From Thermoplasmata archaeon (GTDB lineage: Archaea; Thermoplasmatota; Thermoplasmata; Thermoplasmatales; GCA-001856825): DNA of 64,000 nt. The stretch spans positions 86,302-150,301 of the forward strand of contig JAKAUZ010000013.1 of assembly GCA_021817415.1 (NCBI GenBank). The letters run 5' to 3'. Below the pieces are notes generated by a model. That model was given only the letters and a program-made list of their open reading frames with translations. It was not told the DNA's origin and ran no database searches. Position 1 is the first letter of the stretch. Each line of letters begins with the position of its first letter. Positions 8,708-8,955 of the stretch are shown one piece after another. The position numbers and the translations under genes were made by a program.

Positions 8708-8815
8708 ATGAAGAGGAGTTCAAGGGACTGGAAGAAAAGACACAAGATGCGATGGAAATGGAGAAAGAAGAGAATTAGAAGATTAAAGAGGATCAGAAGA
8801 GCATCTAGGAGCTAA
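8708..8815 (+). CDS. rpl41e: Ribosomal protein eL41 (L41e)
   Basis: 35-aa ORF below the track cutoff: MKRSSRDWKKRHKMRWKWRKKRIRRLKRIRRASRS; MRWKWRKKRxRRLKRxRR is the L41e signature (internal ATG at 8747 could be an alternative start). Confidence 0.85.
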   Translation: MKRSSRDWKKRHKMRWKWRKKRIRRLKRIRRASRS

Positions 8816-8816
8816 A

Positions 8817-8955
8817 GGGCGCATGGGGTAGTCAGGCATCCTAGCGGGCTCCAGTTAGGGGTTGATTAAATGTGGGTCATCTGACCATGATGATAAACTG
8901 GAGCGATGACCCTAAGAGAGACCCGCAGATCTGGGTTCAAATCCCAGTGCGCCCA
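8817..8955 (+). tRNA. tRNA-Trp (CCA) with a 66-nt intron at 8855-8920
   Basis: Acceptor GGGCGCA/TGCGCCC, T-arm CTGGGTTCAAATCCCAG, anticodon stem GCGGG/CCCGC, loop CTCCAG^intron^A; anticodon CCA at 8851-8853. Confidence 0.9.
8855..8920 (+). ncRNA. Candidate box C/D guide RNA within the pre-tRNA-Trp intron
   Basis: C-like TGATTA (8863-8868), D' CTGA (8881-8884), C' ATGATGA (8887-8893), D-like ATGA (8906-8909); guides pair to C34 and nt 39 of the same tRNA with +5 spacing. Confidence 0.7.

Follow-up and report, generated by a model that had tools for sequence, protein, structure and literature searches.

The closest described counterpart of the locus reported here is the pre-tRNA-Trp guide of Haloferax volcanii and Pyrococcus abyssi (Cm34, Um39), which matches it in host tRNA, in the position of the intron (37/38), in guiding nucleotides 34 and 39, and in having intron bases within its target (PMC2584109, PMC7994747). 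Position 39 need not be a uridine in such systems, as a review entry given as 'Um39 (or Cm39)' places Cm39 already in the literature (PMC6313347). We suggest that the intron analysed in this study is very probably the form that the archaeal pre-tRNA-Trp intronic box C/D guide RNA takes in Thermoplasmatales, with methylation itself as its presumed outcome.

The window, by which we mean the whole stretch of 64,000 nucleotides that was analysed, carries at 8817-8955 of the plus strand a tRNA-Trp(CCA) gene interrupted by a 66-nt intron. The parts of this gene, and the small open reading frame that precedes it, are:

8708..8815, plus strand, rpl41e open reading frame (35 aa, ribosomal protein L41e; Pfam PF05162, 22.5 bits against a cut-off of 22.3)
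8817..8854, plus strand, tRNA-Trp exon 1 (nt 1-37), anticodon CCA at 8851-8853, assigned from the cloverleaf and the alignment
8855..8920, plus strand, tRNA-Trp intron and candidate box C/D guide RNA, 66 nt, at the canonical position 37/38
8921..8955, plus strand, tRNA-Trp exon 2 (nt 38-72, to 8954) with discriminator A73 at 8955

Neither ARAGORN nor the Rfam tRNA model at its gathering cut-off finds the tRNA-Trp gene, presumably because of the long intron. A covariance model built on the tRNA-Trp pre-tRNA recovers it across the class. The end of rpl41e and the 5' end of the tRNA are separated by 1 nt in the window, and the order of these two genes is kept in many relatives, where the spacing mostly ranges from a 1-nt overlap to 3 nt. 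Co-transcription of rpl41e and tRNA-Trp is probable, and given such tight spacing the 5' maturation of the tRNA would cut at or beside the L41e stop codon.

The initial annotation had read the intron as a self-targeting box C/D guide for nucleotides 34 and 39, a reading that register, conservation and covariation now back. All of the boxes and both of the guides that it named are present where it had placed them:

8862-8868, plus strand, box C TTGATTA, the 6th nt (U) pairing with the 1st nt (A) of box D
8870..8878, plus strand, D' guide, pairing with 8920-8927
8881-8884, plus strand, box D' CTGA, invariant in a 32-sequence alignment
8887-8893, plus strand, box C' ATGATGA, its TGATGA invariant in the same alignment
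8896..8904, plus strand, D guide, pairing with 8848-8856 across the 5' splice site
8906-8909, plus strand, box D ATGA, the 1st nt (A) pairing with the 6th nt (U) of box C

Along the intron the boxes thus follow the order C, D', C', D. The D guide forms a duplex of 9 contiguous pairs, from G31 through intron +2, in which C34 (8851) faces the 5th nt upstream of box D. The D' guide forms 8 contiguous pairs, one G-U among them, and C39 (8922) likewise faces the 5th nt upstream of box D'. When compared with the consensus RUGAUGA/CUGA, box D' and box C' are an exact fit; box C and box D are off consensus and retain both the tandem G-A positions and the Watson-Crick pair.

In the mechanism that we favour, the C/D and C'/D' boxes of the intron would fold into kink-turns and the intron would bind L7Ae, Nop5 and fibrillarin. 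The resulting RNP could then direct 2'-O-methylation of C34, the wobble base, and of C39 on unspliced pre-tRNA-Trp, whether on the same molecule or on another, after which the splicing endonuclease would cut the BHB motif and the exons would be joined. Genes for fibrillarin, Nop and L7Ae are all found in the 2.0-Mb host assembly, as Pfam-level matches above curated cut-offs. We infer the methylation, the action in cis or trans and the circularisation of the intron by analogy with H. volcanii and P. abyssi (PMC7994747, PMC4090602, PMC4033218).

Conservation of the complementarity between guide and target in relatives had been set beforehand as a test by which this reading could be refuted, and the complementarity proved to be conserved. 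The relatives compared include I-plasma, whose family within the Thermoplasmatales is also that of the window, Ferroplasma acidarmanus, Acidiplasma aeolicum, Thermogymnomonas acidicola and a Thermoplasma sp. A query with the whole gene matches 93 of the 117 genomes of the order, and the pre-tRNA covariance model gives matches in 379 of the 400 genomes of the class. The latter figure should not be read as a number of tRNA-Trp genes, since the weaker matches include other intron-containing tRNAs. The distinct tRNA-Trp introns that were parsed number 134 (79 from order-level and pattern searches, 55 from the class), and every one of them keeps CTGGA as the core of the C34 guide; one further intron that the parser rejected, L107, lies outside this set and has CTGAA there. 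A C at position 39 had been flagged as unusual. It is instead the rule in the class, being present in all 134 introns.

Several observations in these genomes stand apart from the general pattern. The C39 guide, mostly kept across the class, is lost or degraded and the C34 guide intact in L287 and L288 (family f14) and in L278, L283 and L285 (family f11). Contig 10 of genome G065 has two tRNA-Trp genes, L084 and L093, 1.8 kb apart and both with guide introns, and the second of them, L093, has diverged exons. The long covariance-model matches examined in G015-G017 turned out to be tRNA-Glu, and those in G039, G026, G029 and G036 other intron-containing tRNAs, so that tRNA-Trp was not located in these genomes through such matches. 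A search of 28 genomes for tRNA-Trp with a short intron returned G038 only (family f4), where the tRNA-Trp, L095, has an intron of a mere 15 nt and no guide. Fibrillarin was not found in the G038 assembly, which is 86% complete, and it is possible either that the guide system has been lost there or that the assembly has a gap. Two good-looking candidates for stand-alone guides were dismissed as chance: G038:C1:18597 lies inside an ORF of 374 aa, and G015:C55:2795 appears to be coding.

Covariation between guides and targets was informative about both the register and the nature of the target. Sliding the duplexes by 1-3 columns in the 32-sequence alignment lowers the proportion of paired cells from 81% to 23-41% for D' and from 94% to 11-39% for D. 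In the same alignment the D' guide pairs with nt 43 as G-C in 14 sequences and as A-U in 13, and with nt 42 there is one change on both sides, within the order. The pairing of the D guide extends to intron +1 and +2 and so includes intron bases, and at +2 the pair with the guide is C-G in 17 sequences and U-A in 15, it being understood that the kinship of the sequences inflates all such covariation counts. The C-G state is nevertheless seen in several separate families (f6, f15, f27, f28). In the full set of 134 introns, the +2 base forms a Watson-Crick pair with its guide partner in 129 and a pair of any kind in 132, with three U-G wobbles, as against a mean of 66 and a maximum of 93 Watson-Crick pairs in a shuffled control. 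The two introns scored as unpaired (L128, L288) appear to reflect the choice by our script of a second CTGGA/CTGAA in the 3' tail. Since splicing takes +2 out, selection must have fitted the guide to the unspliced precursor, and in other archaea it is likewise the precursor, with intron bases included in the target, that the guide addresses (PMC2584109). The nucleotide at +2 has a second partner, in the BHB inner helix, and the triad of +2, BHB partner and guide partner reads C/G/G in 17 of the 32 sequences, T/A/A in 14 and T/G/A in 1, which puts a single base under selection for splicing and guiding alike.

It could be proposed that this is an ordinary spliced tRNA intron, the likeness to a guide being due to chance or arising as a by-product of BHB folding, given that introns are common in archaeal tRNAs and that the BHB motif requires some intron-exon complementarity regardless. 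We regard this as very improbable. Dinucleotide shuffling of the intron, repeated 20,000 times, reached the D score 24 times, the D' score 3 times and both together not once; members of the window's family show 94-97% identity over the whole gene with its intron; and the guides lie apart from the BHB strands and still covary with their targets. Conservation and covariation already contradict such a reading. A second proposal accepts the C34 guide as functional and takes the C39 half to be a relic or a weak guide. The C34 guide is universal in our set, whereas many relatives have a D' duplex of just 3-5 pairs counted from nt 38 and some have none, the contiguous pairs from that nucleotide numbering 3 or fewer in 11 of the 55 class introns, and the C39 methylation predicted in Pyrococcus furiosus was not detected in the tRNAs analysed (PMC7668247). 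Against this, the D' duplex of the window, with its 8 contiguous pairs, lies beside a canonical D' box, the C' box is canonical too, and guide and target covary at nt 43 and, in one instance, at nt 42 within the order. We therefore hold it to be unlikely that only the C34 guide works, and prefer the reading in which the intron guides modification of both nucleotides.

The folding of the pre-tRNA bears on a further possibility. The BHB motif in the window has 3-nt bulges and a 4-nt central helix, and its strands within the intron are:

8856..8860, plus strand, TAGGG, 5' strand of the BHB inner helix and terminal stem, pairing with CCCTA at 8910-8914
8910..8914, plus strand, CCCTA, 3' strand of the BHB inner helix and terminal stem, pairing with TAGGG at 8856..8860
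8915..8918, plus strand, AGAG, strand of the BHB central helix, pairing with C32-C35 at 8849-8852 with one C-A mismatch

Two intron pairings had been put forward as competitors of the guide structure. One of these, TTAGGG/CCCTAA, is not a competitor, being the BHB inner helix and terminal stem itself, and 4 of its 6 pairs show changes on both sides. The other, GGGTCATC/GATGACCC, fared better in part, for it does occur in the predicted fold of the window; it is broken in the Thermoplasma/Ferroplasma family. The energy minimum predicted for the pre-tRNA, at -56.0 kcal/mol, is a non-cloverleaf fold with GGGUCAUC/GAUGACCC, and the BHB fold, at -50.4 kcal/mol, is 5.6 kcal/mol weaker. It might be supposed that, beside guiding, the GGGTCATC/GATGACCC helix acts as a functional switch, hiding the D' guide together with box D and so setting which of methylation and splicing comes first. 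The helix is part of the predicted minimum, it is a perfect helix of 8 pairs in the window's family (f1) and most of f3, and one of its pairs is changed on both sides. In 13 of the 32 sequences, however, mainly those of the Thermoplasma/Ferroplasma family, an inner pair is disrupted, and the core of the helix has little freedom to differ, GGGTC being required of the guide and NTGA of box D. Such a switch seems to us quite unlikely; the helix holds in f1 and in most of f3 and is broken in f6, and so is not a shared requirement.

In a kink-turn, nucleotide 6 of box C pairs with nucleotide 1 of box D. The initial annotation had called both of these boxes degenerate, a description that does not suit them, since TGATT with ATGA makes a compensated U-A pair and not a decayed one. 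Within the order the two positions are always U-A or G-C (68 and 14 introns, respectively), and in the class C-G (f12, f24 genus g93, f30, f31) and A-U (f29, f32) occur in addition. Watson-Crick pairs make up 117 of the 131 overall, where shuffling gives at most 91, and the column pairs tried as controls in the class set score lower. The pairing does not hold in 14 class introns, some of which may be misassigned, as box C was set mechanically at the first TGA. We consider the chances evenly poised that the tRNA-Trp boxes C and D of Thermoplasmata evolve as a covarying kink-turn pair, using all four Watson-Crick types, with the guide remodelled in some lineages through loss of box D (f15), gain of a UMGCU stem-loop (many others) or disappearance of the guide (f4). 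If this is true, box C/D guides need no canonical boxes to persist and consensus-based searches under-count them. The four-way covariation offers a rule for spotting guides that fall below Rfam gathering cut-offs.

Other departures in box and intron structure were noted among the relatives. In family f15 (L289-L294) the C34 guide is kept, the C39 guide is kept in 4 of the 6 introns and box D is missing (CGCG, CGCC or TGCC in its place). Those four have D' CGGA, C' TGACGA, in which U-U has become C-G, and a long hairpin linking D' and C'. Fibrillarin is present in f15, and its guide has no box D that can be recognised. In L239, L244, L250 and some 30 further loci of the class, an extra stem-loop follows box D and precedes the 3' splice site. 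Its stem is GC-rich and variable, and its pentaloop, U[A/C]GCU (UMGCU), is conserved; this hairpin is the best one in 28 of the 55 class introns, the motif occurs in 34, and none was seen in the window's family.

The self-targeting tRNA-Trp intron is thus extended, with support from covariation, to Thermoplasmatales and much of the class, and what was a guess from a single genome becomes a comparative case. An earlier prediction in Thermoplasma is likely, and the new insight, consisting of the compensated boxes and the covariation with a precursor target, is modest; the more surprising material is in the relatives, where natural losses of the C39 guide, of box D or of the whole guide would permit tests of the purpose of the methylations.

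The sR49-type C/D sRNAs, which specify Cm34 of tRNA-Met, are likewise box C/D guides that address a wobble base in a pre-tRNA with an intron (PMC2584109). That guide is encoded outside the tRNA that is modified, whereas here it lies inside the tRNA-Trp intron. The window intron differs from the H. volcanii one in its length (66 nt as against 103), and from both the H. volcanii and P. abyssi guides in having C and not U at position 39 and a compensated U-A pair in boxes C and D in place of the consensus G-C. The guides in the consensus of Rfam RF01133 sR3, UUGGAGC and GGGUC, have the register relative to D and D' that is described here; boxes C and D of the window differ from that model. By itself the window intron scores 11-17 bits against Rfam C/D families, with 11 bits to sR3, under the gathering cut-off of 41. 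A Thermoplasma intron scores 28.1 bits to sR3, and the best relative tried, the same-order intron L027, reaches 40.5 bits (E 2.6e-7), again relative to a gathering value of 41. Without passing the sR3 model itself, the intron fits the sR3-like family of intronic tRNA-Trp guides on every feature that could be tested.
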